Below, piece after piece: positions 26,810-58,788 of a DNA stretch of 64,000 bases. A program made the translations under genes and the position numbers. Below the pieces are notes generated by a model. It did not search any database and had not been told where the DNA came from. It saw only the letters and a list, made by a program, of their open reading frames with translations. The DNA lies in the NCBI GenBank assembly GCA_037447655.1, contig JBBHKE010003316.1, forward strand, positions 62,001 to 126,000. The letters are read 5' to 3'. The DNA is from Zygnema cylindricum (lineage: Eukaryota > Streptophyta > Zygnematophyceae > Zygnematales > Zygnemataceae). Within the stretch, counting starts at the first letter, position 1, and each line of letters opens with the position of its first letter.

Positions 26810-26813
26810 TCCG

Positions 26814-27108
26814 AACCTGAAACAGACAACAATGCGTTTTTTAGAATTGTTTGCTTCAACAATTTTTGGTGATATAAGTGTTGCAATGACTGCAGTTGGT
26901 ACGATTATATGATAGAACCTGGACGAGACAACAAAGCAGTTTTTTGAGGTTTTTATGTTGTTTGCGTTGACAATTTTTCATGGATAAGTGTTCCAATGAA
27001 TGTAGTTAGTACGGAAATCAAGATCACTGCCCTTGTCTAAAGACGAATTTGAAACAGACAGCATTGGACTTTTTAGGGTTGTTTGCATTGATAAGTGTTG
27101 CAGACAAT
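26814..27108 (-). repeat. Three tandem copies at the STT3 5'-UTR acceptor
   Basis: On the plus strand, units starting GAACCTGAAACAGACAAC, GAACCTGGACGAGACAAC and GAATTTGAAACAGACAGC begin near 26814, 26917 and 27048. Each continues with the GTTTGC-TTGACAATTTT and ATAAGTGTTGCA blocks. The first unit ends at the TTTCAG acceptor just before the STT3 ATG. The duplications start at an acceptor and extend into the 5'-UTR intron. Confidence 0.8.
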
Positions 27109-29766: not shown

Positions 29767-30329
29767 TACACCGTGAATCGTTATTAGCGTTGAGAAATAA
29801 TTAGCGTTAGTAACACTAACTACGGTTTTCATTTTTTTTGAAAAAAATGTTTAATACTAATTGATCATTAATTATTATTTTTCGGTACGACAAATCTGCC
29901 ATCAGGATCGTCACAATAAAATAGGTAAAAGTACAAAATCTAACAAATCGTACACTGTCGCGTCCTTAGACTCTAATTTTTTCATAATTCTATTTTGGGT
30001 GTTCAAGCGAATAATTATTACTCCACAACAAATCTCTACACTAAAATAGGTACAATCTTATTATGTCTCTTATTCTGAGCGTAGTTTTACATGCGATCGC
30101 GATTATTTTAATCCATGTTTCGTACTGTTTTACTTAGCAAAGTACCATTTTGTACGGAGTGAAACGTCAGTACATCACATTATTCAATAATATCATAAAT
30201 TATAATTATGAACGCTAATTCTCTAGAACCGTAATTAACGTGAAGGAAAATATAATATTATCAAATTTCTATTTCGGATTTTGGAATCAAAATTTAGAGT
30301 TCGTAACGATAATAACGATTCGCGGTGTA
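29767..30329. mobile_element. Tc1/mariner-like MITE, family A, long copy
   Basis: The termini TACACCGTGAATCGTTATTAG and GATAATAACGATTCGCGGTGTA are inverted repeats with TA borders. The 560-bp AT-rich interior has internal partial repeats of GCGTTA words. It is non-coding. Confidence 0.75.
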
Positions 30330-30461
30330 GTTTAACGCCGCGTGACATATATAAATTAGTGTTATGTATCGGTAAATTTATAATTATCGCGCGAAGTGCG
30401 GAGAATAGAGTTTACGATGTCCTTACGTATTTATATTGAATTCCGTACTCTTCAATGTGTC

Positions 30462-31411
30462 CGTGAAATTTCGTGCGTTTTAATGTGAACCAACACTCTT
30501 TCAGTATGTATCGCAAATGATTACGCTTCAAATTGTTTTGTTTTGCAAACGTTAGTAAACATGGACGTACGTTAATCTATCTTGTACGTACACTTTAACG
30601 TTAGGTTTTGATTTACGTCTTAACATATCTGATTTTTAAACTTACGTCTAAATCTTACCGTTAACCCTAAATCTTACAGCCTAACCCTAAATCTTACAGC
30701 TTAACCTTAAACCTAAATCTTAGCGTTAACCCTAAATTTTACAGGTTAACCTTAAATCTTACAACTTACAACTTACAATTAATTTATTTTTGTTATAATA
30801 TTAATAATTCTATGGTTTTTTTTTTGTTTATTCATTACTATGGGTGTGGTCTCTAATTAGTCGATTTTATTTTGTTTTTATTCAATGTTCTTTTTATATT
30901 TTATTTTATATTTTAATTTCCTCTTTATCTTCTTTTTGTTCGTGAAATTTTGTGCGTTTTAATGTGAACCAACACTCTTTCAGTATGTATCGCAAATGAT
31001 TACACTTCAAATTGTTTTGTTTTGCAAACGTTAGTAAACATGGTCGTACGTTAATCTATCTTGTACGTACACTTTAACGTTAGGTTTTGATTTACGTCTT
31101 AACATATCTGATTTTTAAACTTACGTCTAAATCTTACCGTTAACCCTAAATCTTACAGCCTAACCCTAAATCTTACAGCTTAACCTTAAACCTAAATCTT
31201 AGCGTTAACCCTAAATCTTACAGGTTAACCTTAAATCTTACAACTTACAACTTACAATTAATTTATTTTTGTTATAATATTAATATTTCTATGGTTTTTT
31301 TTTTGTTTATTCATTACTATGGGTGTGGTCTCTAATTAGTCGATTTTATTTTGTTTTTATTCAATGTTCTTTTTATATTTTATTTTATATTTTAATTTCC
31401 TCTTTATCTTT
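30462..31411 (+). repeat. Nearly identical 479-bp tandem duplication with telomere-like words
   Basis: 30462-30940 and 30941-31411 match with only a handful of substitutions (for example GGACGTACG versus GGTCGTACG). Each copy holds a short array of TAACCCTAAATCTTACAG-type units near 30657-30770 and 31136-31250. The second copy runs into T-rich sequence where the first runs back into CGTGAAATT. Confidence 0.9.
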
Positions 31412-31559
31412 TTCTTTTTTCTTTTTTTTTTATCTCTTTTTATCTTTTAAATGTTTCCTTATCGTTTTGTATCCCCGTTCTTTTTTTTTTCTTTTTTTTC
31501 ATTTCATTTTTTATTTTTTTCCATAACTTTTTTTTTAGTTCCTTTCTTTTACATTTTGG

Positions 31560-32489
31560 TGATCTTCATAATTATTATTTTAAAAATTGGATGTATTTTT
31601 TTTATACTTCTGCAAAAATTTTTGAATGATATTGTTTTCTCTAAGGTTTTCACCCCCCCTCTTTTTATGGCTAATTGTGTTTTGAATGATTATTGTATAA
31701 CTATTATATTTGTTCTTTTTTAATAGTCCAATAAACTCATCAGGTGTAATATGTACATTCGGATGCGTTTGTCCACTCCAAAAAAAATCATCCTGATTTA
31801 AACCACATTGATAAATTAATGTTATGTTTGGGTTACGTTGTTTTAACGAATCTTTGATGATCCGTTCTCTATACGAATCATTATATAGTGAGTGGGTTTT
31901 ATTATTCTTTATCACATTAACTATATCATGGAGGAATTCTTATTTTACTCTATCACACTCACTATATGATGGAGGAATTATTATTTTATTCTTACATAGC
32001 CATCAACTTCCAAATAACAAAATTTAAGACAGATTGCAAATGCGAGCCCTCACACAATATAAGGTAAAATTTGCAAATTTCCCTTAAGTCAGTAAAACAT
32101 GGAAAAAAAATATGAATAATTAATATATATATACATATATATAATATTTTATATTTTCCATTTTCATATTTATGTATACTTTTTTGTTATATATATATAT
32201 ATTTAACCTTTATTTTTTCCTTTTCATATATTTGTATTTTTTTTAATGATTTTTGGCGTAAGGGAATTATCCAAATTTTACTTAATATTGTTTCAAGGCT
32301 TGCATTTGCAAATTGTCAAAAATGTATCATCATTTTCTAAATATGCAAACTTTTGACAGAATTTCGAGCCCTAAAACAATACAACGTAAAATTTGCGAAT
32401 TTCCCTTAAGCCAATAAAACATTGAAAAAACAAAAAAGTATCCATTTCTGTTATTTTCTATTTTTTTTTCAATATGTATATTTTTTCTC

Positions 32490-32527
<38 letters not shown>

Positions 32528-32893
32528 TTATATATGTATATAAATGTATATATACATGTATATATACATATATATAGACATGTATATATACATATGCATA
32601 CAGATATATAGACAAATATATAAACATACATATATATATACATATATATACATATATATATATGCATATATATACATATATATACATATTTATATACATA
32701 TATATACATATATATATACATACATATATACATACATATATACATACATATATACATACATATATACATACATATATACATACATATATATGCATATATA
32801 CATACATATATACATACATATATACATACATATATACATACATATATACATACATATATACATACATATATACATGCATATATACATACATAT

Positions 32894-32925
<32 letters not shown>

Positions 32926-33410
32926 TACTGTTTTTTTGGTGTTAGAGAATTTTCTAAATTTTACGTGGTATTGTCTAAAAGCTCGCAATTGCAAATTGTC
33001 AAGAATTTGCTTATTTATAAGATAATGATAGCAATGTACGAATAAATAAAAAATCCCCCAACTACATAACGAGTCAGATAGAGAATGGATCATCAAAGAT
33101 TCATTAAAACACTATAACTTAAAACAACATTTGTTTATCAATGTGGTTTGAATCGATATGTAAAATTTTAGAGTTGAAAAGAGCACCCAAATACAAATAT
33201 TGTACCTGATAAAGTTTTTGGATTAGTAGAGAATCACAAAGATAAGAGCTATACCATACTTATACAATAGGTGAAAAGACTCGAAAATGCATACAAAACA
33301 CATTTAGTCATAAATGAAAGAGGGAAAAAAACCTTAAAAAAAACAATATCATTCAAAAACTTTTACAAGGGTAAAAAAAAAACACATCAAATTTTATAAA
33401 GAATTATCAT
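31560..33410. repeat. Nested inverted repeats in an AT-rich island
   Basis: Outer arms: about 31560-31960 and 33060-33410 are inverted copies (shared AACAATATCATTCAAAAA and ATCAAAGATTC blocks). Inside are two smaller foldbacks. The first has arms near 32030-32100 and 32258-32320. The second has arms near 32355-32425 and 32937-33003. Both are built on AATTTGCAAATTTCCCTTA, GTAAAATTTG and TTGCAAATTGTC. The minus frame at 31580-31915 and its decayed partner at 33070-33200 may be remnants of a coding arm. Confidence 0.65.
32490..32930. repeat. TATACATACA microsatellite
   Basis: A long alternating purine-pyrimidine array of TA and TATACATACA units forms the loop of the second foldback. It could adopt cruciform or Z-like structure. 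The Tyr-Ile-Cys and Tyr-Ile-Tyr frames on both strands are pure repeat artefacts. Confidence 0.95.
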
Positions 33411-36400
33411 ATAAATCACTATAAAAGTATACGACAAACGCATTCTCTCAAAGATTACAAAGGATTTTCAACATTTTGCTTGGAGTTTGTCGAAAAAAAA
33501 CAGGAATACAAAATTGGGGATGGAACCATACACCATTATTTAAGTGTTGTATTTTATTTTTTGTCTCTTTATTGTTTTGTTTTTATTTTTTGTATGAGTT
33601 GACGATGATTCCAAATGTACTTAGTGGATGGTTTTCTCGTACGGTTTTATTTATCTTGGGGCGAACGAGGGTCGTGATTTGGCGATAGTTACAAAAAATG
33701 AGAAAACAATTACAAAAAATGAAAAAACTAATGTAATAATTAATATTTATTTATCTTTCGTCTAACAAAGGTCGTGTTTTTGCAATGGCTCCAAGAAATG
33801 AGAAAACTAATATAGTAAGTTATTTATAAAACTTGAGATTCAACGCAATTGTGTTTTATTTTTATATACACAACCAAAAAAAACTAATTTTGCAAAGTTT
33901 TTTTTATGTTATTTTTTATTTGCATAGATTGCTTTTTATTTTAATAATTCGTGCATAACAAAAAACAAATTATTTTTTTTTTTTTTTTTTTTTTTTCAAT
34001 CCGCAAACATATAAGCCATCGAAAATTTAACAGATGCGTGGATCACTTAGACTTTTTTATTTGTTTGTTAAGTGTTGTGGCCCAACAGTTTTTTAAAAGG
34101 TGAGAATGAAAAACATTTTGTTATCCCACAAAACGCATGTTGGACGTGGACAAAGAGTTAAGCTGTCGGCAAAAAAAGGGTAGGTTTTATTAAGCTCAAC
34201 ATTTAAACTTTATTATGAATCTATTTGAAATAATCAATTTTTGTTATCTATGTTTTATGTTATATTTTTCCAAACTTTGACTTTTTATGGTAAATATTAC
34301 AGTATTCATCAAGAAGCCATCAAAGTGATGGGATGTTGCACATGTGACTATTTTTCGTATATTTATATTATAGATTTGCCCACCGATATTTCACTTTAAG
34401 TTTATAATCACCACTTTTCTTTTTTTTTCCACTTTTTTTTTCTCTCTTTCCCTCTATCTCACTGACTTTTTCTATTTTTTTCTCTCTCTCACCTTTTTTA
34501 TTATTTATGTTCAATAAAATATTTATTGGTTTCTTTTTGCATAAAAATGTTTAAGGTTCCAAATCTGAACGAGATTTAAGCTCTCAAAATTTCATACAAA
34601 CTATGTTATGTCTTAAAATTGTGTTTTTACAAGACCATGTTTTTTTCCAATATTTATTTCTTAATCTTCCTATCTTTACGGACAAATTGTTCTATTCTCA
34701 TTTGTGGTCGTCGTTGAAATATGGGTAAAAATTACATGTCTGAAAACATTGAACATGTGAGCTTTTATTTCTGCATGTCGGAAAATCAATCGATTCATTA
34801 TTTATGTGGAGTTAAATATATGGACGCAAAATTGATTTTATGGGAGAAAAAAAATATGTTGTGTGAATCGAAAAGTTGTTGGAGCACAACTACACACGTT
34901 AAATTTGTGTGTAAAACATACCATGATGGTGTAGGTGGACTCCATTCTATTGTGGATTTGGAATTAGGTGTTTCTTGAACTAGTTGGAAAAATAAAATAT
35001 CAGAAAGTCATTTATGATTAAAGAGTCATTTGGGAAAAAGTTTATAGAATAGCAAAGGTGAATGTTGTAACATTAAGTACGACATTGAGTACGACATTGG
35101 ACATGTTGCACGATCGCAAATTGATAAGCAAATGGAGTTTGAGCGACTTATTAAAGGGATTAACGATTGAAACAAACAAAAGTAAAATTGTAACTTGTGG
35201 GACTTTTTTTGCACTTGTTATAAACGTGTTTTTTCTTAAATTTTTAAACTTGGGATAAACATTTAATATATGTTTAAGTAATTTTTTTTATAAATTTAAA
35301 CTCAGGTAATGAGTTTGCTTATTGTTTTATTCTTTTTGGCTTATTTTGTGTTATTGTTTTGTTTGTTTGTTTTTAACTTTATTTAGTAGGAACCCTAAAA
35401 TCGCATGCCTTGTTTTTTTTTTTTTTTTTTTAAACGCTCAACCTTTAATGTTGTCGAAATCAATGATTTTTGTAATCTAATCCACAAAATGTTCATTTTA
35501 ATTAGCATTGACAACTAAAATTATTTAATATTTGTCGCCTAATGTGATTTTATCATAAAGTTGGATGTCGTGTACACACACACACAAATTTTATATGTAT
35601 GTTGTTTTATTTCTATTTTGTTTATCGACAATTACGTTAGGTTAAAAAGTTTTAGTTAAAGTCTTAGGGTTGTAAAACAAAATATATCTTAACAAAAATC
35701 AAAGACAGTTTCTCTATCATGGTCGATAAAAAATGTAGCCGTTGTATTTGTCAAATTTAATATGTTTAAAACATTGTAAGATTGAGGAACGATAACATTG
35801 ATCGTGTGAGTAAAATTGGTTCCATTTTTGGTTTTGTGACATTTTAAATGAAAATAGAAGTAACAACTAACTATTTTAATCATTTTTTGGTTTTTTTTTA
35901 GTTAATGCCTTTTGTCGAATATTTAATTGGATATCTTGTTTGTTTTATCAACAACAATGTTAGATTAAAAATTTATAATTTAATGGTTTTTATTAATAAA
36001 TTAATATTTCGCTATTAAAACGATAAATTTATTTGAGCGACATTAAATATGTATTGACGATGGCGACCGAAAAATAGATCAATTGAAACAATGTCATGGC
36101 CGCTAAGGACCAACCAGCAGCAAATTCAATGATGAATTACTCTATTTTAAGTAGCGACGTCTCGATGAGATCGACGATATTAACGTGGCCGCAATGGTAG
36201 CATCTTTGTTTATATTTTGTGTAATTTGGGAAGTTTTCATGCATTTGTGTTTATTGTGTTTGTTTTAATTGCAATTTGACATCACCCGCCGCAAAAGCTT
36301 CTATTTATCCGTTTGCGTCCTCCCGCAAAACGTTGTATATCGCTCGCTAGGAAAGGTATAACTGGCCCGGTGGCGACTTAGAGGGCCAACTAGAAATGTG

Positions 36401-43391: not shown

Positions 43392-46300
43392 ATGGCAACC
43401 ATGGCTGTGCTTATTGTTATCGTTCTCTCTTTGATCTTAAGTTCAACTGCATTAGGACACTCTGACGGTGTTGACTTCATTCTTCAAAATCCGTACAATC
43501 ATAAAATTCCGCATGGTCTATCAAACTTATTTGCTTCTTCTGATTCCGCAAAAGGAGTGAGACGAGCACTGCTGGAGCCCGTGGAGGGTGCATATGTCGG
43601 TGTGACCTATAACAACTCTGTGTCTCTGGAGAAGTATTCTGACTTTATCCAATTTAAGCCGACAACTATTGGAGCATTTTGCCATTTTCCTATGACGCTG
43701 GAAGACAAAAAGTCACTGCGACCTCTTCTGAAGCAGGCTAGTCTTCTTTCTATTTGTTTGTTTTATGGCAAGCATGGAGGAGCAGGAAAGTTTGTTGTTA
43801 ATGCCAGAGTAGAAAATAAATGTTTATAGGTTTGTTTTTTTGTTTTTTTTGTTTAGCAAGTTACTCATTCAATCTTGTGCAGTTGTCATCCCAGTGATGC
43901 ACAAGCAAAATTTTTGTGAGAGCAATTTTTTTTTTGTGTTGAAAACTCAATTTTCAAACTTGATTAGCAACTTTATCCGGATGCATTTTGTAGAATGGTC
44001 AAATATGATTGGGAACAAAAAACCATTTTTACCTGTGTTTGTGAATGATGGAGTATAAATGCTGTTGTCACATTGCACTTTTTCCAATGACAGAGAAGGA
44101 GTGCATTGAGCATTTTGTTTTTCGTATCTTGGATAGTATGCACCTCCTCAGCTGAATTCTAATTGTTTTCATTGGAAACTTTTGGAAGCAGGTTGCTAAT
44201 GTTAATGGAATGCTGGTGCTCACCTTGGAGCCTTACCTTGGCCTCAGTTTTGTAACAGAACGGGCATGTCGTGAATTGGTGGAATTCATCGCACCCTACG
44301 AAACTTTGGGCGTCTCATTTTTCCTGCGGTTCGGCCATGAGATGAATGGTGCCTGGTGAGCGCAATCAACTGAGTGACTAAAATTCCTGAAGGGTGCAGT
44401 CTGGTGATGTACTTACATATATGTAGATTATGAGGATTCCTTTTTGAAGATGTAGGGAGACATTGGAAGGCAGGAGATGGAAGCAGCGCCATGGATTGCA
44501 TTTAAATTTTTTCAGCCCAATTGTAAACCAGTCAACGGAGAGGCACGAGATGGAGACTGTTATGGATTGCATTTGTGAATTTTCAACCTTATTGTAGCCA
44601 TTTGTTGAAAAGAGCGTTTTTCCGTTTCATGATTTTTTTTAGTCTTGGGTGTTTTGCAGGTATCCATGGTGTCAAAAGCCAACTAAATACAAGGAGAAGT
44701 TCCGTATGGTGGCTCGGTTTGTACAGTCTTTTACGTGTCGAACAGCAATGTTATGGGCGCCCAACAATGGTGGAAGTTATCCGTTCGCCGGTTTTTATGT
44801 ATGCAGGAAATGGTTCTGCTCAGATTTCAACATCCTGGATACAAACAATGACGGGAAGTTGACAATGGAGGATGACATGTATACACCATACTATCCTGGA
44901 GACGACGTTGTGGATTGGGTGGGAATGACTATGTACCATTGGGGGCGTAAAGCACCGTGGGGCAAAAATGTGATTCCAGAGCCAAACGCTTTCTGGGATA
45001 GGGTATGTGCTCTGTCGACAATCCCTTCCACTAGACAGACAACATTGTTGTTATGATGTTTGATCTGTTGATATAGAGATTTTTGCCTATTTGCAAAGCT
45101 TTATGACAAAGCCCCTCACATGTGATTTTTTTTTTGACCAATGTCATTGATGGGAGTCACAATTCGTTGCATTTGCATATGGCATCTAATTGGACACGTT
45201 AAAAACTTTATTTTTATCGGTTTTCTTCTTCAGTTATATCTGCAGAGCATATGCATCAAACTTTGCTTGAAAGAAAGAAACTTTGCTTGTGCCATGGTTG
45301 CAGCTCACAGGCAATTATGACGGTGAAAATGGCAATGAAACGGCTGTGCCAGATTTTTATGCCATGTTCTGTAATGACTCTGTCCACATGAAACCACTTG
45401 CGGTTCCAGAGGTGTCTGCAATGTGGAATCCCAACAGTGATTGTTGTGACACAGAGTTGGCAGTAAAATCTGATTGGTGGACTCAGGTGAAAGCAACTTA
45501 AGCTTTTTCTTCTCTGGATTCATGACATGAATAGGATAGCATATCCCTGATTTTTTTCTCTGTTGTGCAGTGAATGTCGCTCAACTCATTAGCTGGCATT
45601 AACCTCACAGATTTCCCTGTACTGAACATTGTCCCAATGGGTACATTTGCTTTTGTGTAAGACAAGTTTATTTAGACAGCGGTGCCTTGTTCAATCATAG
45701 CAAGTTTGCAATGTTGTCTGAAAGCATCACATCAAAATAATTTTGTTGGAGGTTTTCTAAGAGCATTCTGTAGCTGATTTTGTGTTTACCTTTAGCCAGA
45801 AAGATAATTTATTTCGGAGTCTCTTATAATTTTTGGGAAAGACCAAAAATTGGGCAGGCTGACATATATCTGTTTATTCTGATGTTTCATGTGTCCTGCA
45901 TGCGTGTCTTTTGTGTATCACTGGGAGTTAAGCCATACATCCTTTTCTGACTGTAATCACCAATACTTGAAGGATCAAACCCTTTCATGGAATGACATCG
46001 GATGTCATGGTGCTGCAGCTGTTCAATGTAGGAGTTGACAAATCGGGCGCTCGTGATGTTTCAAAGTGGCTACCACGCCTTAAAATGGTATCATGGTTCG
46101 ATGAGCGCAAACACGAGGTGAAGACTTTACCGCCTATATCCCGGATTGTTGTAAAAAATCAATCTTGGGACCTTGCTTCTCTGGGTATTATCTCTTCCAT
46201 TAATGCTGGCATGTGATGAGTGGTAACATATATGGAACACGCCTTTATGGTTGAATGATAAGGGAAGTAAGTGTTGGCGGAACTTCAATAGTGTGACATA

Positions 46301-49300
46301 GTAAACAGCTTCTAATGTACAGGTACACCGTGAATCACCATAAGAGTTAAGAAATAATTAGTGTAAAGAAACAATTAGTGTTATTAACTTTATTTTGGGT
46401 TGAAGGGCCTAATGCCAACAAAAATTAACGCTAATTTATATACCTAACACTAATTTGGATACATATTCCCATATTGTAGCCGCGATAGTCTGTGTTCACA
46501 TATTCGATGCTTGAACATGTGAGAACAGTTTCTCGCGATTTCCCCTCGTCTTAATGACTGGGAATCAAATCTGAGTGCGCTTTTCCGTGGCGACCCTCTT
46601 AATTTCCCGTGTCGACGCCTTTTTCTGACACTGACACTTATTCTGTCACACACTTATTCTGACACACACTTATTCTGTATGTCTGTATGAAATAATGAGC
46701 AGTTTTAGTAAGGACTGACACATTTCGTACATTACACTATTTAAAAACAGTTGAATTTGGAGTAATTAACGCTAATTAAACAGAATCTATATTAACGAAA
46801 AAAAATTAGAGTTATTAATTCTATTTTAGGTTCGAGGGTCAAAATTTGAGGGCTCCGAATTAGCGTTATTAATGCTTATAGCGATTCACGGTGTAGTAGG
46901 AAAGTGGAGTATTGGGTCGTAACATGTTTAGTCATTAAAAAATATGAGTGGAAGTGCCTCCTTTCCAGCTGACTAGTGTGATGCATTCGAAAGGCTGAAT
47001 ATGTTAAAGGCTCTAATGGACCCCAGGTGAAGACAGGTGAATTACTGTGGCCTCTTATTAGCATAAAGGAGGCTCAACAGGGAGCTGGAGCAAAGATAGA
47101 AGTCCCGACGCTTTTAGATGGGCTTGCTCGTAGAGAGTGACTGTGACAGTCCAAGCTCTTGCTGTTGGCAGGAGGAGCAGGCGTGATGGACTGGACCTCT
47201 AACTCAAACCAAGGTCTCCAGGAGTTCACCAGGGATTTTCACGTAGGGCCTGAGCTGGGCAGTAACAGCACTACTTGGGACCGGGTCTGGCCTGTCAGGG
47301 CAAACTTACTGTGGATTGGACCTTCTCCAACAATCCGATCGTGAGACGCAAATTTCGACAAGATATGCTAAAGCAGGTGGGGACAAGAAATAGCTGTGGT
47401 TAGTGGCAGATGGCTATTTGATGGCCGTATTGTTCCTTTGAGGCATTTGGTTTGCAAGTTGCAATCTTGGGAAGTGAAGGGAATGGATTCATTAAACAGT
47501 GTGTTCAATGTACTATTCCTTAGTGACTAAATCCCTTTGCTGACATGGCAAAGACGCGCAGACCGAGTTTCTCCTTACCATGAGAGCTGTCCTGCCGTCC
47601 TAATGTGTCAGGTCCTTGAAAACGGGCATCGTTACTGGAAAGTGCTGAGTGGTTACCACAGAGATGAACGCCTGGTGGATGCAAGCATCGCATGTAAAAA
47701 TATCAAAATCATCAGTAGGTGACTGCCTCTAAACGGCTTCTTAATTCCAATATTGCATGTGAAATTGAGGTGATTAATTAAACACATTTCCTGGAGCTCC
47801 TTTCGCTGTTGTTTTGTGTATGATTGTTTTTTTTTTGTTCTGACATGCGAGCTCTGGCTTGAAAGTGGATGATAAAATTCGTTTGGTTGAAGAATGAGAT
47901 GATTTGTCTAATGTGAGACTAATGTGATTGTTTAGGTGATGCAGCTCTTCATAATCAGGAATGGGTTACAAATAGTTTGTTTTAAAATGGTACTCAATAT
48001 TTGCGTGTTGATTCTGTATTAGCTTACAAAAGATGGAAACCTGCATTTTATATTTTATATAACAAAACTAAGTTGTTCCTAGGATTACGGTGAAATAGCT
48101 CAAATTTTCAATGAAATGTCCATCAAGGAACAGCGAACTACACCGTGTATCGCTATTAGTGTTAATGATTTTTTCGCCACTTAAAACATCTTTTCTCTGT
48201 ACACACTTGTCCATTTTCAGTTTGAGACGGCCAATCAGAGGCTGAGAATCATACCTTTCGATCGCAACCGTCAGATCCACAATCCAACATGTGTGTACGG
48301 AGAAAAGATGTTTTTATGTTTAAAAAAAAACATTAACACTAATAGCGATTCACGGTGTAGTTTACTATTGCATCAAATTATACAAATTAAAAACAATCAT
48401 CAGCTAAGGAAGATCTTTACTAATCTATTAGTAAAAGGGGTATATACATGGTATATTTTGTTGATGTATAATGAAACTGACTTCTATTCCCACTGAGTTT
48501 GTTTTATCTCACTATTTGGTTATCTTAATAGTTGGAGAAGGTTGATTGTTCGGTACTTGTGTATTTCAAAACATATCACGTGTGTATGATGCAGCTAACC
48601 AGACGATCACACTCACTGTCGACGTCCCATCCCAAGGCCATGAAGCAGAAGTCGGAGTGGAAATATACAGGTGAGCAACTCTCCGTTGCTCCAGTAGGCA
48701 ACTCCATCTTTGCGGATAGGTGGAGTAGGGTGGAAAAGGATTTTTTTTGGTTGAAAAAGGATTTGAAGGTGATGATGCATTGGGTCTGAGGATTGCAGTG
48801 TAAACCAGGACGGCATTCCGGATATTCTGTTTGGCTCAGGTTCAACTATTGTCACGGGGAAAGAAAAATTGTTGGTAAATATTAGTATCACCTTCAAGGA
48901 GCCCCAGGATCCCAGCTGGCAGGAAGGCACTCTCTATTACAGTGCTTTTGTTCGGCCCCTTCAGAAGAATCCCTTCAATAGGTAAGGCTTGTCCATTCGA
49001 TGCCATTGATTTCATTGGCTTTGATATAAAGTCTATTTTGAAGGCAACGGAAACCCAATTTTATCCGATAAATTGGTGTTGCTCAGCTACTTTTAGAGCC
49101 CAAGCTTTTATTCTGTTTCCCATCGTGATTGGTCACCTGTTTGCGGCATCAGCAAATGTTGTTGTTGGTACACAACCACCGTCTGCTTTAAGTGATTCAC
49201 CTCCACTTTCCTTTGGAGTGCTTCTTGCAGGTCAAATATGTGTACGTCGCGGTCATCTCTTGTGGCAATTCAGGCAGCAAGGGATGGTCCCCGACCTCCT

Positions 49301-49471
49301 GCTCCATTGACACCCTCAAAATTGCGCCTCCGGGAGGGTGAGGTTACTCTTATTGTGGTCATTATCGCCCTCCTTGTCACGGCTCTCTATGTCACAACCC
49401 GCCGTCATTTACGGGCTTGGAAGCAGACGTGTAATACTGTCGGAGGAGCATTTCGCTTTGCAGCAGCCGAG
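43392..49471 (+). CDS. GH26 hydrolase with beta-domain and membrane span (N-terminal part)
   Basis: Ten exons: 43392-43736, 44192-44355, 44660-45002, 45304-45486, 46019-46117, 47299-47376, 47612-47693, 48595-48670, 48799-48981 and 49231-49471. Product: signal peptide (MATMAVLIVIVLSLILSSTA); GH26 domain with acid/base Glu about 165 in RFGHEMNGAW and nucleophile Glu about 320 in VPEVSAMW; an EF-hand-like DTNNDGKLTMED loop; WFDERKHE; then VDWTFSN. A beta-rich domain (SNQTITLTVDVP, VNQDGIPDILFGSG) precedes a membrane span (VTLIVVIIALLVTALYV) followed by RRHLRAWKQ, which suggests a cytosolic C-side. GH26 enzymes mostly cleave beta-1,4-mannan. Intron 1 appears to use a GC donor. All phases agree. 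The last exon ends phase 0 at GAG and the next bases, GTGTGA, are a donor that reads Val-stop if unspliced. The chain continues in frame into the ankyrin exons at 49702. Confidence 0.87.
46324..46895. mobile_element. Family A MITE with nested insert, in a GH26 intron
   Basis: The ends TACACCGTGAATCACCATAAG and CTTATAGCGATTCACGGTGTA are TA-bounded inverted repeats. The interior contains a second inverted structure (AGACTATCGCGG-like arms, TATTCTGACACACACTTATTC repeats) related to 60400-60760. It lies between exons 5 and 6. Confidence 0.7.
48139..48359. mobile_element. Family A MITE carrying a nested family B element
   Basis: Outer ends: TACACCGTGTATCGCTATTAG and CTAATAGCGATTCACGGTGTA, TA-bounded. 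Inside, 48183-48316 is a complete family B element (ACATCTTTTCTCTGTACACAC and GTGTGTACGGAGAAAAGATGT). It lies in the intron before exon 8. Confidence 0.8.
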
Positions 49472-49701
49472 GTGTGACTCTCATTCGACTCTCATTATAG
49501 CCGTAGGATTGTCATGTAACTCACAGATTGCAGTCAAATATTCTGAATGTAAATGTTCTTCAGTGAATCTTTTTGTCAATTGTATACTTTGAAGCGGAAA
49601 GAAAGCTTATGTTTGATGATTGCTTGGAAATGCGTAATCATAGTGGTTATGTCTAACATCCTAACGTGGATTTTGTGCTTGATAAACTGATTTGTGTGCA
49701 G

Positions 49702-52700
49702 GGAAATATATCTGTAATGGAGGAGATATCAAAAATGCAGGGTTTTGATGTCAATGTGGGACTTTTAGGTTTCACTGCTTTGCATTCTGCAGTAATTCAA
49801 GACCAGGTGTGTTTTGTTGTACTTTGGCCTTTTTGGCCGCGGAAACACCCAGGACTATAGACACATAAATTTCATCGAAGAATAACTCTCATTATTCTCA
49901 GACTACACCAGTGGAGAATATTCAGACTACACCAGTGAGTGTGTAGAATAATGAGAGTGCAGAATCAAGCATGTGTAGACATCCTGTCAAAGTTTCATAC
50001 AAAATGCTCAACTAAGTACTCAGACTACATCACTGTGTAGAATCCAGCATGTGAAGACAACTCTTAGAGTTTCATGCAAAATGCTCATCAAAGCTTCATC
50101 CGAAATGAAACTCTAAACAATCCGTAAACAATACTTAACATAAAAAGGAAGTATAACCAACATTTAACAATGACAGAACACTTTGTGTGTAACCTCACTG
50201 TCTCCCACTCAAGCACCTCACACACACTCGAAGCACCTCTCACACACTCGACAATTTTAAGGTAAAAAATCTTCGGTCCCTGCTTTTCACTTAATCTGGT
50301 TTACACAGCTTGTATGAATATATACACTTAGGAGCCACTACAACTAACGTACTGTACTTAGTTTACGTTACAGATCCTAAAACAGATCTTGGCGTCACCC
50401 GTCTTTAATTCCCTAGCTGAATTTTTTATCTGTACAGGCTATAAAGTAATTAATACACAAGGCGACAACATTCTGTTTTCAAGAAATACAGCGCTGACAT
50501 ATTTTTTTTACACGGCATAGGATAGCATGGCATAGGATAGCTGCATTAGCACTGTCCAAGTCACTTTTCAAATCTATGACGGATGTTAGATTAGATTCAT
50601 CAACGACCTTTGCCGTCCTTCGTACAGGATCAGGTTTCCCACATCTCTTTTAGGGGTTTTTAGGGTTTTTAGGATGCGTGGGGTACTCCGTTAGATCGAA
50701 CTTGTAATGTCACTGATCTTGCCATGTGTCAACTTAACCTACGTTCCGGTTCTAAGTACTTTTGGCGCTGTCGAGGGTCTCGGCGCCCCACCTGCGCTCA
50801 GCCCCCCACCGCCGCTTGGCGTCTGAAATCCGTTCGCGCAGGTTGTCACACTAATTCACTCCCATGTTAGAGTTTCTCTTTCTATAAACTTTCAAAGTCC
50901 TGAATTCCCCTCTCACAGCCTACTTGTGAGAGGACCAAAGCTTTTAAAACAATATGGTATCGGAGCATGGTACAAGTTAGTTTGCTGAATGATCCACTGT
51001 TTAATCACAGACGCTCCGTACTTTCAATTTCCTGTTCGAAGTTTAGACTGTCGTTCACACTTTTTTTCCCCTAACGTGTATCCATTTGAACCTTTATCAC
51101 TCTTTCTTTAATATAGTACGTGCACACGAAAAACATGCGCGCACGTAAACTTAATTTCAAATACAACATGTTTCACACACTCCATTGTATATGCCATGAT
51201 GACATGTTCTGAAATAGGTAAAAAATTCAGTGAGATGTGAACCATGTTCACAAGTGTTTTTGTGTGTGGGCGATGAGCTGGTTATTTTTGTTGATAGAAA
51301 TTCCTCCCCTTCTCCTTCTCCTTTTCCTTCTTTTTCTCTGTCTAATTTTTTCTTCTCCTCCTCCTCCGTCCCCTTCTCCTTCTTCTCCTTCTTGTTTATC
51401 TTTTCCTTCTACTCCTTTTCTTTCTCCTTCTTCTCTTTATCCTTTTTCTTTTTATCTTTTTCTCCTTCTGATCCTTCTTCTCCTCGTTCTCCTTCTTCTT
51501 TCCGTTCTGATATTTCTTCTCCTCTTCAAAAGTGTTTTGATAGCTTATCTTCCGGCGTTGCTTTCAGGTAACTGCAGTGGAATGGCTTTTGTCTCGTGGC
51601 GCCAATGTACATTGCAAAAAGGAGGAGAACTGGGAAGATACAGCACTACATTATGCGGCTGCCAATGGCTTTGCTGACGTGGCTCGTATTCTACTGCAAT
51701 TTGGCGCTAATCCATGCCTGAAAAACTTCCAGGTGCCCTACTTACCTCGGTTATAGGGTAATTTTACCTATGCTATTATTCTTAATACTGGCCAGTGATC
51801 ACCGTAGTCTTACAAAAAAAAAATAGTCTTTTGGAAAATCGTATCGATGTCTGTATGATCCTATGCACTGTTCCTGTGTTCTTTGTTCAGGGTGCTACAC
51901 CTGGTGACTTGGCCTGGCAAAACAACCACATAGAGCTGGCCTTGGCCTTGTACAAGGCAATCAGTTCATACGCTGGATTCGACAAACAAAATGAGGGAAA
52001 TCAGCTGGATGTACCTCTGGTCTTTCCTACACTCCCTCAGGGTGCTCCTCCTCCAAATGAACAAATTTCTTTTATGTACAACACGCCAGTATCTCTATCC
52101 GTACAAGACAGTCAAAGAGCTCCTCACCTGGTTAAGCACAGCTTGACTCCTGTATCTGTGCCGGACCAAGAAGAGTTTGATGGCTCAAATCTGGCCATTG
52201 AAGGGAGTGGGTTGATGACTCCACTGTTGGGCAAGATGCAAAACCCGAACGATGCAGTGCAGGATTTCATTGGGCGCGTAAATTACGGTTTAGGCACACA
52301 TGGAACTGTACTGAAGAAGGGTACATATTCCTGGCGTTCGCTTGCTGTCATTTGTCAGGTGGGTTGGAGGAGGGATCCTTGGAGCCGTTATGTTGTATGC
52401 AGCTGTTTGTTTAGTCACTGAAAGTGAATTGGATGATGTGAAGCAATAAGAATGCATTGTTGATCTTTTCAGATGAACAGAAGTGTAACAGGATTTGGTG
52501 GGTGCAGCCACAAGATTTATCTGATCTGATTTTTTTGATCTGCTGGATTCGCTACGTTTTCTGCTGATTGACATATAAATGATGTTGGTGTATCATCATT
52601 CATGTAAATAATGATGTGTGTATAAATGATGTTTAAATGACGTAAATGATGTGAATGATGTGGGTGTATCGCCGAACGGGTGCGCAGGTAGCAGGCATAG

Positions 52701-55700
52701 TTTACTTCATGTGGCGTGCACGGTACAGTATCAATCGTGAACACCTTGCCTTTAGTCTCCTCTTCTTCCTCGCCGAGCTTGCTATATTTATTCCATCCTT
52801 CATCTTTTGCATGGAGATATGGACACCTGTAGAGCGGGATCCCCGCTCTCTTCAGAGCATGTGTCTCTCACCCAATGACTTTCCCTCTGTGGATGTTTAT
52901 GTGGTCTGTTTTAATGAACCGGTTACCATCATTGAAGCAACGGTTTGTGCTGCATTAAACATGATGTGAGTACCTCGCCACCCACCTCCCCTCTGCTGCT
53001 TTATGTTTGTGCACTCCTATTGTGATATTGCATATGTGATTGTCACCGCTGCTGGCCAGTCAATAGTTGTACAGAAAAGTGTACGCTTAGTACATTGTTC
53101 TGTACAGTTACTGTGGTTACTGGCTAGTAATCCTGTGTGTGTAGTTACCCTATTAGGTCTCCTGTCAATAAAAACACTGGTGGTTATAAAATAGAAATGG
53201 TGGCTGAACAGCAAGCTTTTCTAAATGATAAAGTTATGAAGCGCCTAGCTTACAAAATGGAAAGTTTTATACCAAATAACATTGGAACCCAGTTATGATG
53301 ACCTGATGGATGCTCGAATGCAACAGCTTAAGACCTCTTAATGAAGCATTTGGAACTCTGGCTATCATTCACACCATTTTTTTTGGTCAAAGAAAGAATG
53401 GTGTGCCAATTTCCAAAGGCTGATTCTGTTCAACAGTTTACATGAACAGGTACCCACCGGCGAAGTTACAGGTGTGGGTTTTAGACGATGGAAAACGCAA
53501 GCAGGTGGAAGAAACTTGCACAAAATTGCAACAAGAAATGTGCTTGAAAAAGTCGGGACCTTATGGTCGGGGCTGGGCAAAACTTCAGTATTCGGCTAGG
53601 ATCAAGGTGAGGGATTTGCTCCCCTGTTGTGAAGCATGAAGAAACCAGGAGCTGCAGGTGAGTGTTACGAGGCACTATAGTGTAGACACACTTGACCAAA
53701 GAGCGGAATTGAGCAGCGGGTTGAGCACTTTATAATGCCCATAATTACATGGGGACCTTACAGAGTATGAATGGATGGGCTGGAGGTACTGTGTGATTCT
53801 TGTGCGGGTCATGATATAAGGCTCTGCAATTGTATTTGGGATTGCAGGTGGAAGGAGTACCACACCACGCTAAGGCTGGGAACATCAATAGTCAACTTTT
53901 GAAAGGCATGCGACAGGGGGGGAAGCAGGGGGCTTTTGTGGTGGTCTTTGACTGCGACATGATTCCACGACCAGACTTTTTGGATCGCGTCATGGGGCAC
54001 TTTTTTGAGAAAATTGAAGATGGGTGGGAGCTCCGGAGAAAGCTGGCCTTTGTACAGACTCCTCAGGTTTGGTTTTTTGTTTTGTTACCTACACGCAATT
54101 GTCAGACATGGGATAGGAAGCTGCTCAAGCTCTCTCAACAGTAGCGCGGAAAGAAATTGGCTGGCAGGAGAAAGGAAACTTGCTATGTTGGATCATAAGT
54201 CATTTCTAATCACTAACATCTTATAATTTGATTAGCAATCTGTAGCTATTTACAACCTGTAAACAGACAGGTTACGTTTGACATTGGCCAGTTCATTTGA
54301 TGAACATGGAAAATTAGTGAGATTAATTGAAGAGAAACTTGTTGCCCTTGCCTCTCTAACTTACACGGGAGGAAATGGGTTTGTCGCAGGATTTTTACAA
54401 TGTAGGCAGAGATGATCCTATGGGCCACCGAGCTGCCTTCTTCTATGGCCCTATGATGCAGGGCAGGGATGGTTTAGGAGCGTGTCCTTGTGTGGGAACT
54501 GGAGTGGTGTTCCGTCGTGATGCTCTCATTTCTATTGGCGGACAGGCGTTTGGCTCAATCACTGAGGACTACAATACGGCAATGACATTCATGGGGGCAG
54601 GTGAGGATTGTTGCTGTTACCTTAATGCGTTCTATTGTATTTACAATGTATACCAAATGTGATGTGCAACAAATCTTTACTGTGTCGGCTGGTTGGGCAG
54701 TACTGTGTTTTATCATCTTTATGAGAACTGCTTGGAAACAAAAAAGGACTGCTGCATTTTTTTCCCTTTCTTTACTGGGCTGTACAAATGAAGCCACGAC
54801 TAATCGTTTCAATCCTTTCCAGTTGTTTTGTTGGGCTGTATAGCTAAAAATTTTAATTATGAATGCAGAAAGCCCTTTTCTGATCCCAAGATAACATCGG
54901 TGAAAACAAAATTGATTCTCTTATCCATTTTTGTGCTGTGCAGGTTTCTCATCCATCTACTTAAATGAGCGCCTAATCTATGGTTTGGCTCCGGAAGACC
55001 TCAATGCCGTTTTCAAACAGCGGCTTCGTTGGGCAATGGGCTCATTGCAGGTGCTAATAGCCTTCTGCAACATGTTATTGTTTTTTTTTTTTTCATTTCT
55101 GTCGACCTCTTAATATTTCTGTCAGATGTCTATATCTGCTGATGTCACTGCAAGACGTCGGTGGCACACCCGATGCATCAGTATTTGTTTTGAAGATCTA
55201 CTTTGCATCAATCGCTTTCTTCCCCTCCGGTAATGTCACCTCCTGAAATGTCCGATTCTCTACTATTGACTTGTATGCTTTCTCCCACGCAAGCTTCCAC
55301 TTCCATTCCCAATCACACGATTTTCTCGCCTCGGTGTATGATCGAGGATTGCCGGCCAAATTCTCACACATTAATTGCTATAAAAGGAATTCCGTCTCCT
55401 TCGCATTGGAGACGTAATAATGAGAATTGGAATTATCTTCACCAATTTTTTCATAAGAAAGCCGATTTGGTTTCTTTCCTCTATTTTCTCGAGTACTTCT
55501 CCTAAGAACCGGAAATTGTTCTACATTTTGTTCCTCCTCATCCTCATTTGGCAAACTCGATTTTGAGCTCGAGATTTTAGAGTTTCCGCCGACATTTTAG
55601 AATTTCGGCTCACATTGCTTTGAACATCGATGTCAATGTCCAATTTCTCCAAACCCAAATCTGCTTTCAATTTCCCATTCTTGACATCGACAATGGATTG

Positions 55701-58700
55701 CGGCTCCTCAGTCGAATCCGAATCCTCGATGTCCAGGAAATTGGCGACATCGTCCTCCTTATAGAAATCAAGATTTTTCTTTAATGTGACCGATTTTTCG
55801 ATAACCGATTTTAAATCCTCATGAAAATTGGTATTGCGGGATTTTTCCACAATGCGACGAACCATATCAAATACACGGTAAAGATTTCCCTTCGAACTAA
55901 AGCCCACAAAAATTCTGGGCCAACTCCTCGCATCAAATTTCCCCTTTCTTTTCACTTGATCCACATATAGATTGTAGCTTGACATCCCCAAATTCAGAGA
56001 TGATGGAGCGTCGGTTTTCCCCTATTTAATAATTCAAATGGTGTTTTGTCACCGGAAACCGAAGAAAGCCTCCGATTGCAAATATATTTAGCCGTGAGGA
56101 TGGCTTTCCCCATAATAAGATATTGGCTGTGAATCTGGTATAACAGTTCCCCTTCTTTTTTTGGAAGGTACGGATGCTTATGGTTATGTTTTGCGCGGAA
56201 GGGTCGGTTGTGTGAGGGATGTCCACTTGCATGTGGTAAACTTCCAAGGAAGCGGGGATGTCCTAGTTGCTGAAATTTGAAACGCATTTGTGCCCAGATT
56301 TTGTGCCGTGACAACCCTCTCTTCAAACCGGAGCTGACCATCCCGCAATCTCTTCTTTTTTTTCAGTCGGCCTTCCAGTTTAGTTTTGGTAAAGCAATAA
56401 GAGATCATTGAAAAAGCTTCAGCTATGGTAACCATCTGATTGTGCATTCTCCTGATTGTGAAGGGAGGGAGGAGGGTTGGGGGATCCTCAGTACTGGCTG
56501 TCCCTTCCCACGTTCCTTGTGATTTTGGCGCCTATCATTTACATGTTCTTCGCAATGAGCCCCATCATGGCTCGTGTGAACGAGTTCTGTTTTTTCTTCA
56601 GCTTGTATTACAGCTGCAACCGTCTCATGATCTGGACAGCCCACAATGGGGTGCCTAATAAGGGCTTAGAGATGTGGAGAGGAACCCAGGCATGGGTATG
56701 GACGGTTCCCAACAATCTGGAAGCTTGCTGGAAGGTGGTCACTTCTGAACTGTGGATGTTCAAGATTCTGGGCGCCTCAGAGGTATGGATAGATATTCCA
56801 TGCGGAGAGATTTTCTTCTAATTTTTGGCGAAAAGTAAGCCGGAAATACTGCTGTCTTTTATCAAACAAAATGACAAGACTTGCTCCGTGCATTTTCTGG
56901 GCCCTAGTTTCCATCAATAGTGGTGGCCACTGTTTTCTGAAACACAGCATAGTTCTAATGTGCGAAAAGGAATGAAACAGTATATGTAGTTTCCTTGTAC
57001 TAAAAGCACATTGAACCGATAAATAAGCATGTATGGGATTTCTAGATATATGGTTTCCATACATTTGCAAACATAAATACTAAGAAATATTTGCCGTTAA
57101 TTAGGTGTATATGCTGGGATGTTTATAGAGCAATGTTTCAACCATGTTGCAGCTATTTGACAGTTATGCAGAACAGGATTCAGTAATTTGTATTATCAGG
57201 CACTGAGTCTTTGGTACTGTATTTTCCTGGCTAGCAAGATATCTAACTTTGTGCAAGGTTGTGTAGGTTAATCAGCTTGTAATACTCAGTCATATGCGAG
57301 TCCAGTCATGTTCTCTTCCTTTTAGTTAACATGAACTGGAAAGATGGGCAACAGATTGGCTTCACGGTGACAAAAAAGGACGCCGAACGAAACATTTGGC
57401 AAGGGCTTTGCACTACCTGGGTTTATTTTCTCTACTACGCCATTATGACTTTGGGAGTCATCATTAATCTTTTGCGATTCAGTTTCGGTTACTACTCCGT
57501 TGACTACGTAGTTGGGCAGGTGATGTCCGTTACGCCCAATTTCAACTGTCGAAAATCGATGAGTTTATCTTTTCATTTCTGTCCAACCGAGGACTCCAAA
57601 AGTGACAATTTTTTTTCTCATGTGGGTGGTATGGAGGGTCAGGTTGTGGCTTTTGCTTGGGGCGCTCTCATCTGCGCGTATCTTTGGCCCCCGGTTTTAA
57701 TGATCCTAAAATGGTATGAGCCGGCAGTTGTGGGAAAGGTGGAGTGGGATGAGACTCCGGCAGAGCTCGCAGACGCTTTCCATCCTAACACCGGTATTTT
57801 TTCTTTATCTCTGACCTTCCCTTGGGTCATCTTTCATTTTCCCTCTTTTTCCCCTTCCCATCCCCTGTATATTTAAGGGTAGAGTGTGCTCTTTGAGCTC
57901 CCCTTTGGTCATCATATTGCCCATCACTTTCCTTCACTTTCAACTTCCCTTCTCCTTCTTTGAAGAGAATTTATATGTTTTGTTCGTGACCACGGTATAA
58001 TTTTTATTTTCTTATTCCCCCTTTGGTCTTCTTATTGAGATGTCACAACATTTTTGAACTCCTTTGGGACGGATGTACACGGTGTTTTTTCCAGAGGTAT
58101 GGAAACCGTCTTTTTTGCTTTTATTTGCTGTTCTAAGCTGAAGTCTGGCGGGAGGACAGGCCCTGCGGCTGAAGTGGAGAAACAGATCCACCCTGAGGCC
58201 GATGTGCATATGCAAAAGGCGATATGGAGGAAGATATTGAAGAACTGGTCGACATTGCTTCAAAGGTGGTTTGGGTAAGTCTTTCTGCGGTACACCTTTC
58301 AATAAGAAGTACACAATTTCCAGTGCTCCTACCTTGCAATCGAGCTTGTAGATAGAGGAAAGTGGACTCTCAAATCTGGCCGTTAAAAAAAATCATTCTT
58401 GCATCTAACAAAAAATCCATCTGTGCACTTCATGAAATTTTATTCAGACTCGCAAAATCGAAGTTTTTGAAGGCTGATTTGCCTACGGCTGTAAGATTGA
58501 TTGTATGTTGTATTTTTTGGCCTTCAAATGACCTTGAAGATATGGTGTTATCGCAGATCACCTCAAGATGGCCGTATCGACCGTTCAATTCGCAACTTGA
58601 GTGGAAGTGTGAGCCTTCTCTCTCGTCCAGAATTCACCTTAATGCGTCGCGATCGTGACAGTGTCACCTTTCCTCTGGTAAACTCCATCACTCTCATATC

Positions 58701-58788
58701 ATTGGTGGTTGTCGGTGTCCTATACTCGTTGTACCGTACGGAACCTGTGCAAGCTTTCATCCGTTTCCAACTAGTCCCGGTAATCTGA
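49702..58788 (+). CDS. Ankyrin-repeat GT2 synthase, CesA/BcsA type (C-terminal part)
   Basis: Exons: 49702-49806, 51568-51732, 51891-52358, 52688-52965, 53450-53606, 53848-54066, 54390-54600, 54944-55050, 56492-56782, 57355-57519, 57643-57793, 58097-58274 and 58557-58788. Two to three ankyrin repeats (GFTALHSAVIQDQ, DTALHYAAANGFADVARILL) and a Pro/Ser-rich linker precede two membrane spans. The GT2 core follows: VCFNEP, VLDDG, FDCDMIPRPDF, SITEDYNTA and QRLRW, the D,D,D,QxxRW set of processive beta-glycan synthases. C-terminal membrane spans follow. UDP- or GDP-sugar polymerisation to a beta-1,4-glycan is inferred; the polymer is not certain. Phases match across every junction, and together with the GH26 exons the chain is 1,506 codons plus stop. 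The starts of exons 57355 and 58097 are the least sure. A ~26-residue BcsA segment after QRLRW is missing where a Copia fragment lies. A separate start at 49666 (MDFVLDK) is possible. Confidence 0.9.
50955..50966 (+). other. Possible LTR-retrotransposon primer-binding site
   Basis: TGGTATCGGAGC resembles the initiator-tRNA-Met complementary site TGGTATCAGAGC that follows the 5' LTR in many Copia and Gypsy elements. It lies in the long intron 49807-51567. I cannot delimit an LTR pair, so it may be a truncated relic. Confidence 0.35.
55140..56400 (-). mobile_element. Ty1/Copia pol fragment (integrase end to RT start)
   Basis: On the minus strand the order is integrase C-terminal part (KYICNRRLSS, DKTPFELLNRGKPTLHHL, then RKGKFDARSWPRIFVGFSSKG), a linker with acidic residues, then the start of the reverse transcriptase (VTLPEGKKAID, IFKTNTDASGVP). 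Several frame breaks and stops make it dead. It is antisense in the intron between the QRLRW exon and the next membrane-span exon of the GT2 gene. Neither LTR was found nearby. Confidence 0.85.

Follow-up and report, generated by a model that had tools for sequence, protein, structure and literature searches.

The window analysed here is a 64,000-nucleotide stretch of the genome of the streptophyte Zygnema cylindricum (assembly GCA_037447655.1, contig JBBHKE010003316.1, positions 62,001 to 126,000; contig C2488 of the 2,689 contigs, 352.8 Mb in all, that we searched). Its forward strand holds one open chain that runs from an ATG at 43392 to a TGA at 58788 through 23 exons, with matching phases throughout, and encodes 1,514 residues plus the stop. 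From the N- to the C-terminus, the chain comprises a signal peptide, a glycoside hydrolase family 26 (GH26) domain, a domain unmatched in Pfam, a single membrane span, ankyrin repeats, a linker and a BcsA-like glycosyltransferase family 2 (GT2) module; as read from the DNA, a synthase and a glycanase appear to share one protein. A preliminary description of this DNA had proposed such a chain, from a secreted GH26 through a span and ankyrin repeats to a GT2, and this is borne out at the sequence level, the array being repeated in other copies in the genome. Its 23 exons with matching phases were reproduced after correction of the model, and its total of 1,507 codons was not, our length being the one stated above.

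Gene model and topology

The gene model was derived from DNA only, and a first model was corrected by comparison with two further genome copies, on contigs C1155 and C767. An initial 22-exon version placed exon 18 at 55126-55229, which was dropped; C1155 carries a one-base deletion within that stretch. The initial starts of exons 19 and 20, together with a phase clash at exon 20, were likewise abandoned once an acceptor shared with C767 was seen (CAACAG/ATTGG and AAACAG/ATTGG, the slash marking the splice site), which made the microexons considered for that clash superfluous. With the corrected model the match of the GT2 part to BcsA rose from E 8.1e-36 to E 8.5e-47, and the new exon 18 aligns with the BcsA stretch MLLLKNPLFRRGLGIAQRL. 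That the chain exceeds a chance assembly of open frames is indicated at its other end by a bacterial GH26 that is 42% identical over residues 63-378, crossing the joins of exons 1-5.

The GH26 part occupies the first six exons. Exon 1 (43392..43736) encodes the putative signal peptide (hydrophobic residues 4-22) and the start of the domain, and ends in a GC donor; the resulting GC-AG intron 1, an exception among the 22 introns, is backed by the bacterial GH26 alignment. Exon 2 (44192..44355) leads into the HEMNGAW motif, which intron 2 interrupts (44336-44660) and which holds the proposed acid/base Glu165, exon 3 (44660..45002) includes an inserted loop, DTNNDGKLTMEDD (44838-44876), that resembles a calcium-binding loop, and exon 4 (45304..45486) holds PEVSA (45406-45420) with the proposed nucleophile Glu320. 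Exon 5 (46019..46117) continues the domain, and exon 6 (47612..47714), where the bacterial alignment is loose, ends it. Exons 7 (48595..48670) and 8 (48799..48981) encode a presumably extracellular domain without a Pfam match, and exon 9 (49231..49471) carries the membrane span (residues 537-555, 49343-49399), the basic stretch RRHLRAWK and the first part of ankyrin repeat 1.

The remainder of that repeat and the beginning of the next lie in exon 10 (49702..49806), and further repeats in exon 11 (51568..51732). Exon 12 (51891..52358) completes the ankyrin region and encodes the linker and the start of the first GT2 hydrophobic segment (residues 819-834, across the exon 12/13 join), while exon 13 (52688..52965) contains the second (residues 845-867) and the start of the catalytic domain. 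The GT2 motifs follow in order: LDDG (53481-53492) in exon 14 (53450..53606), HHAKAGN (53863-53883) and FDCD (53947-53958) in exon 15 (53848..54066), SITED (54555-54569) in exon 16 (54390..54600) and QRLRW (55018-55032) in exon 17 (54944..55050). Exon 18 (56298..56378) encodes the BcsA-aligned NPLFKPE segment and is followed by a donor lacking GT, exon 19 (56492..56782) a membrane span (residues 1184-1202), exon 20 (57355..57519) a gating-loop-like FTVTKK (57361-57378) and another span, and exon 21 (57643..57793) a further span of the GT2 module. The C-terminal region is formed by exon 22 (58097..58274) and exon 23 (58557..58788), the latter with the last hydrophobic segment (residues 1478-1496) and the stop TGA.

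The hydropathy profile recovers the signal peptide, the span at residues 537-555 followed by RRHLRAWK, the two segments ahead of the GT2 core (that at residues 819-834 detected only with a 16-residue window) and more spans behind it. Judged from hydropathy alone, the chain is compatible with a GH26 domain outside and the ankyrin repeats and GT2 core inside, in agreement with the topology (hydrolase outside, one span, ankyrin and glycosyltransferase core inside) that had been suggested for it.

One gene across intron 9

Whether the chain belongs to one gene or two turns on intron 9 (49472..49701), across which the preliminary description had joined GAG at 49471 to GGA at 49702, as we also find. 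Exon 9 ends in GAFRFAAAE (49445-49471) and exon 10 begins with GNISVMEEISKMQGFDVN; the two are parts of a single ankyrin repeat split by the intron, and a solved ankyrin-1/ankyrin-2 construct (4rlv) aligns unbroken over the 49471/49702 junction. The donor (GAG/GT) and the peptide GAFRFAAAE are identical in all four copies that have exon 9 (the window, C1155, C767 and C893). Between the window and C767, exon 9 is identical at 41 of 80 positions, whereas its last nine residues agree at 9/9, the sole such stretch among 72; an end this well kept was equalled in 30 of 20,000 shuffles for C767 and in 23 of 20,000 for C893, two copies so closely alike that they are barely independent witnesses.

The intron itself is short (230 bases), and among all GT and AG sites of the window its donor and acceptor rank within the best 1.5% and 0.4%, respectively, when scored with a matrix that drew on 17 of the first model's 21 introns and in which one acceptor later proved wrong. 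No AATAAA was found in it; TGTAA is present twice, at 49515 and 49548. The Ank_2 score of the joined halves (63.6) exceeds that of the second half read back into the intron (61.5) or from its first Met (59.1); this gain is small and was set aside in favour of the alignments and the other copies.

Two neighbouring genes would look different: an anchored GH26 protein that terminates with the TGA (49475-49477), and an ankyrin-GT2 protein starting from an ATG in exon 10. Such an arrangement would account for the in-frame stop that both the window and C1155 carry one codon past exon 9, and for the two TGTAA motifs; retention of the intron would yield exactly such a GH26 protein. We nevertheless consider it very improbable, given that C767 and C893 show no stop over the 39 and 40 codons, respectively, read beyond exon 9, that exon 9 codes for part of an ankyrin repeat which is also its best-kept stretch, and that the short intron has high-ranking splice sites and lacks AATAAA. 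Because an ankyrin repeat spans the junction, the order recurs in other copies, and the donor and peptide are kept while the stop is not, the fusion is confirmed, at the sequence level, as real and as one gene.

Other copies in the genome and selection

A protein query with the GH26 half over the whole genome, in which 51 candidates were scored, placed relatives on at least eight contigs: that of the window, C1155, C767, C893, C147, C441, C1333 and C2131. The Pfam GH26 profile gave no match on the same genome, whereas the protein query found these copies. The full array is present in the same order and on the same strand in C1155, a near-copy of the window gene (87-100% identical by block), and in C767, a diverged full copy; in C893 it can be followed to roughly residue 1043, where the contig stops. 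C767 retains HEMNG, the PEV Glu, LDDG, FDCD, SITED, QRLRW and VTKK, and both proposed catalytic Glu are retained in C893 as well, where the motifs past the contig end are out of view. In C767 the N-terminal portion of exon 1 shows little conservation, and a signal peptide was not confirmed there.

On the remaining four contigs, GH26 sequences about 33-68% identical by segment were noted (C147:51333-52346, C441:197970-199517, C1333:323561-325684 and C2131:90109-93228), and no ankyrin-GT2 part was found within the 20 kb fetched; these are possibly stand-alone GH26 genes. Two GT2 relatives also exist beyond the four fusion copies, at C1420:152993-155138 (54-85% identical by segment, its 5' side cut by the contig end) and C1341:17262-18622.

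We estimated the ratio of nonsynonymous to synonymous divergence (dN/dS) over 1,268 of 1,514 codons against C767 and 850 against C893, after a filter that removes stretches of low local identity and thereby lowers dN. For GH26 the ratio was 0.146 against C767 and 0.148 against C893; in the same order, exons 7-8 gave 0.202 and 0.210, exon 9 gave 0.507 (56 codons) and 0.366, ankyrin exons 10-11 gave 0.095 and 0.092, the linker 0.100 and 0.125, and GT2 0.108 and 0.082. The comparison with C1155 (GH26 1.2 at dS 0.011; GT2 0.36 at dS 0.069) involves too little divergence for a firm ratio. By the ratios against C767, both the GH26 and the GT2 halves are under purifying selection.

The copies also bear on the integrity of the window gene itself. 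After exon 18 (56379-56380), the window reads CAG/TTTAGT, where C1155 has CAG/GTTAGT and C767 CAG/GTAAGC. This TT could reflect either an assembly or sequencing error, different splicing of the allele, or damage, and calls for caution about the window copy; the 49471/49702 junction is unaffected. A fusion that is real in the family, represented in the window by a damaged copy or by an allele with abnormal splicing of the GT2 half, is a reading we hold to be rather improbable. It would explain the TT where both other copies have GT, and C1155, being 87-100% identical by block, could be the other haplotype; yet the remaining exons are all open, every motif is present, and a lone donor difference may stem from an error of sequencing or be bypassed through a nearby GT.

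Affinities of the GH26 and GT2 parts

The GH26 part scores 20.3 bits with Pfam Glyco_hydro_26, marginally above the cut-off of 20.2, and a bacterial relative 40-42% identical to it scores 33.6. In the alignment, a Blastococcus GH26 matches HEMNGAW and the PEVSA Glu, and both proposed catalytic Glu are in place; we take Glu165 to be the acid/base and Glu320 the nucleophile. The closest solved GH26 by sequence is the lichenase CtLic26A (PDB 2bv9 and others). For a structural model of the Blastococcus relative, the nearest Foldseek match was a lichenase as well, while VIA returned a tie between a beta-1,3-xylanase, AlXyn26A and a lichenase, in lists that rank folds and from which a fitting family may still be missing. 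Sequence and model together suggest that the domain is closer, by a small margin, to CtLic26A, AlXyn26A and beta-1,3-xylanase than to mannanases. The secreted GH26 mannanase of the preliminary description is supported as a GH26; its assignment as a mannanase is, by this small margin, not supported. CtLic26A is 18-23% identical to the modelled Blastococcus relative and reads HEANGDWYPW where the window has HEMNGAWYPW. The window GH26 and its Blastococcus relative carry, in addition, a DT..DG loop (window 44838-44876), absent from eight other aligned bacterial GH26, that looks like a calcium site in its sequence.

The ankyrin region is well supported as a tandem repeat array (Ank_2, 54.9 bits against a cut-off of 27.3). 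The GT2 module has the D, DxD, TED and QxxRW motifs, flanking spans and the VTKK motif, presumably a gating loop, as expected of a BcsA-like processive GT2; the DDG, DCD, TED and QxxRW that had been reported correspond to LDDG, FDCD, SITED and QRLRW. Its best match is BcsA (E 8.5e-47) rather than plant CesA (E 3.1e-18). The equivalog model TIGR03030 (UDP-forming cellulose synthase CelA/BcsA) gave 212.6 bits, below its cut-off of 699.1, for the GT2 of the first model with its wrong exon 18, and no PilZ match was present in the chain at E 0.1. The earlier label of a CesA-type GT2 was not upheld, the nearest relative being bacterial BcsA and the plant-type CesA genes lying elsewhere in the genome: C880 and C2417 match Pfam Cellulose_synt almost end to end, C2198 is a further such contig, and a 200-residue segment of C880 aligns to the solved structure of a plant cellulose synthase (E 3.1e-105). 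Since these plant-type genes are separate, the fused GT2 need not make bulk cellulose.

These affinities can do no more than hint at the substrate. Were the GH26 a true beta-mannanase, the GT2 would be a mannan or glucomannan synthase; we regard such a mannan system as unlikely, because the GH26 falls nearest to lichenase, AlXyn26A and beta-1,3-xylanase by sequence and model, and the GT2 nearest to BcsA.

Unfused GT2-GH26 pairs in bacteria

A pattern-based scan for the GH26 domain across one genome each of 84,980 prokaryote species, a method that misses distant relatives, returned 22 stretches, 11 of which encode a GH26 relative; the best was that of Blastococcus aurantiacus (42% identical). 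By tblastn, nine of the 11 loci also have a GT2 related to that of the window, and in all nine (L002-L004 and L006-L011) the GT2 gene lies immediately 5' of the GH26 gene on the same strand. With start codons chosen as the first in-frame start, or as the ATG/GTG at the GT2 stop (L002, L008), the two genes overlap by 4 bases in three loci and by 8 bases in five, and are separated by 11 bases in one. No related GT2 was found by tblastn in L001 (Blastococcus, the closest GH26) or L005. Viral contigs, scanned twice, gave no relative.

The GT2 genes of L004, L006, L007 and L009-L011 are of one kind and match the window GT2 more weakly (E 2e-4 to 1e-5), and those of the two Dactylosporangium loci and the S. 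diastatochromogenes locus are BcsA-like (E 6e-20 to 6e-25); the GT2 of L002, L003 and L008 are 25-27% identical to that of the window. The nine loci are not independent, as six share one GT2 kind, two come from Dactylosporangium and one from S. diastatochromogenes, and the pairing is given as a raw count. We also noticed further GH26 genes near the pair in L004, L006, L007, L009 and L010. Like the window chain, these actinobacterial pairs combine a membrane GT2 with a GH26 of the HEMNG(A/V)WYPW type; they differ in being two proteins, and in giving no ankyrin match in the matched regions read. The GH26-GT2 partnership appears to recur where the genes are separate, and the pairs may be viewed as the unfused counterpart of the chain; together with the one open chain, they lend support to the original proposal of a synthase paired with a hydrolase.

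A proposed self-editing synthase in the membrane

The reason why a cell-wall synthase should require a hydrolase as its partner is a long-standing question that has mostly been studied with separate genes. Considering the in-phase chain, its recurrence in the genome, the purifying selection on both halves and the bacterial GT2-GH26 pairs, we propose, with a probability of roughly 0.55, that the product of the gene is a self-editing glycan synthase anchored in the membrane, a beta-glucan synthase that carries a tethered hydrolase for editing or releasing its chain. The signal peptide would place the GH26 domain outside the cell, and the span with RRHLRAWK would return the chain to the cytosol, where the ankyrin repeats could bind a cytosolic partner or subunit, whether for regulation or for docking. 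The polypeptide would cross the membrane twice more before the GT2 core, which would polymerise a UDP-sugar and extrude the glycan chain through its own membrane channel, and the tethered GH26 would cut the emerging chain, whether for trimming, length-setting or release. Tethered editing or release of the product is plausible. As the GT2 is nearest to BcsA and the GH26, by a small margin, to lichenase, sequence and model suggest that the product is most likely a 1,4-linked beta-glucan, perhaps one of mixed 1,3;1,4 linkage.

An alternative is that the GH26 binds or loosens other polymers of the wall instead of editing, and that the fusion does no more than bring two wall activities together. 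The occurrence of GH26-alone places in the genome would suit this reading, which we rate as improbable, if less so than a mannan system, in view of the catalytic residues, the purifying selection and the recurrent bacterial pairs, which suggest a common polymer. The more specific form of our preferred reading, the self-editing synthase, is put forward tentatively: a streptophyte synthase of mixed-linkage or related beta-glucan with its own tethered hydrolase of the lichenase type and with ankyrin repeats as a regulatory arm, derived from a fused bacterial-type GT2-GH26 pair, in which the same molecule would set chain length or release during synthesis.

Known systems offer partial parallels. 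The operon partner of BcsA is BcsZ, a GH8 hydrolase; the window chain shares with this system the GT2 core motifs, the gating-loop-like VTKK and a hydrolase outside the cytosol, and differs in the hydrolase family, in being fused and in lacking a PilZ match at the threshold given above. Tunicate cellulose synthase carries a fused GH6 domain and, like the window chain, unites synthase and glycanase in one protein; its hydrolase is C-terminal and it is not known to have ankyrin repeats, in contrast to the chain described here, whose GH26 is N-terminal and retains the two proposed catalytic Glu. In fungi, the predicted glycosyltransferase Tft1 is required for mixed-linkage (beta-1,3;1,4-) glucan (PMC4344333), a likeness drawn from its description; the abstract makes no mention of a hydrolase domain. 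No description of a GH26-ankyrin-GT2 fusion was found in the excerpts of the full-text literature searched (PMC8778642, PMC11096116, PMC11468063, PMC7027972, PMC4344333), with the proteins of other eukaryotes outside this search.

Such a one-chain system would hold the hydrolase where the product leaves the synthase and would let the role of the cut be asked directly, and the bacterial GT2-GH26 gene pairs represent a second, easier system for the same question. If the proposal is true, a BcsA-like synthase operates in a plant-lineage genome that has its own CesA as well.

Other features of the window

Two inverted-repeat elements with similar ends (TACACCGTG...) lie within the gene, at 46324-46895 (intron 5) and 48129-48369 (intron 6), and are like small terminal-inverted-repeat transposons. 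Intron 17 contains a retrotransposon polyprotein fragment on the minus strand (Pfam SH3_retrovirus, 55521-56021). Elsewhere in the window, the region 30000-36000 is AT-rich (23-28% GC), with simple repeats that produce spurious open reading frames at 32494-33111, and a partial gene for the oligosaccharyltransferase STT3 occupies 25901-26977 on the minus strand (Pfam STT3, E 2.7e-81).

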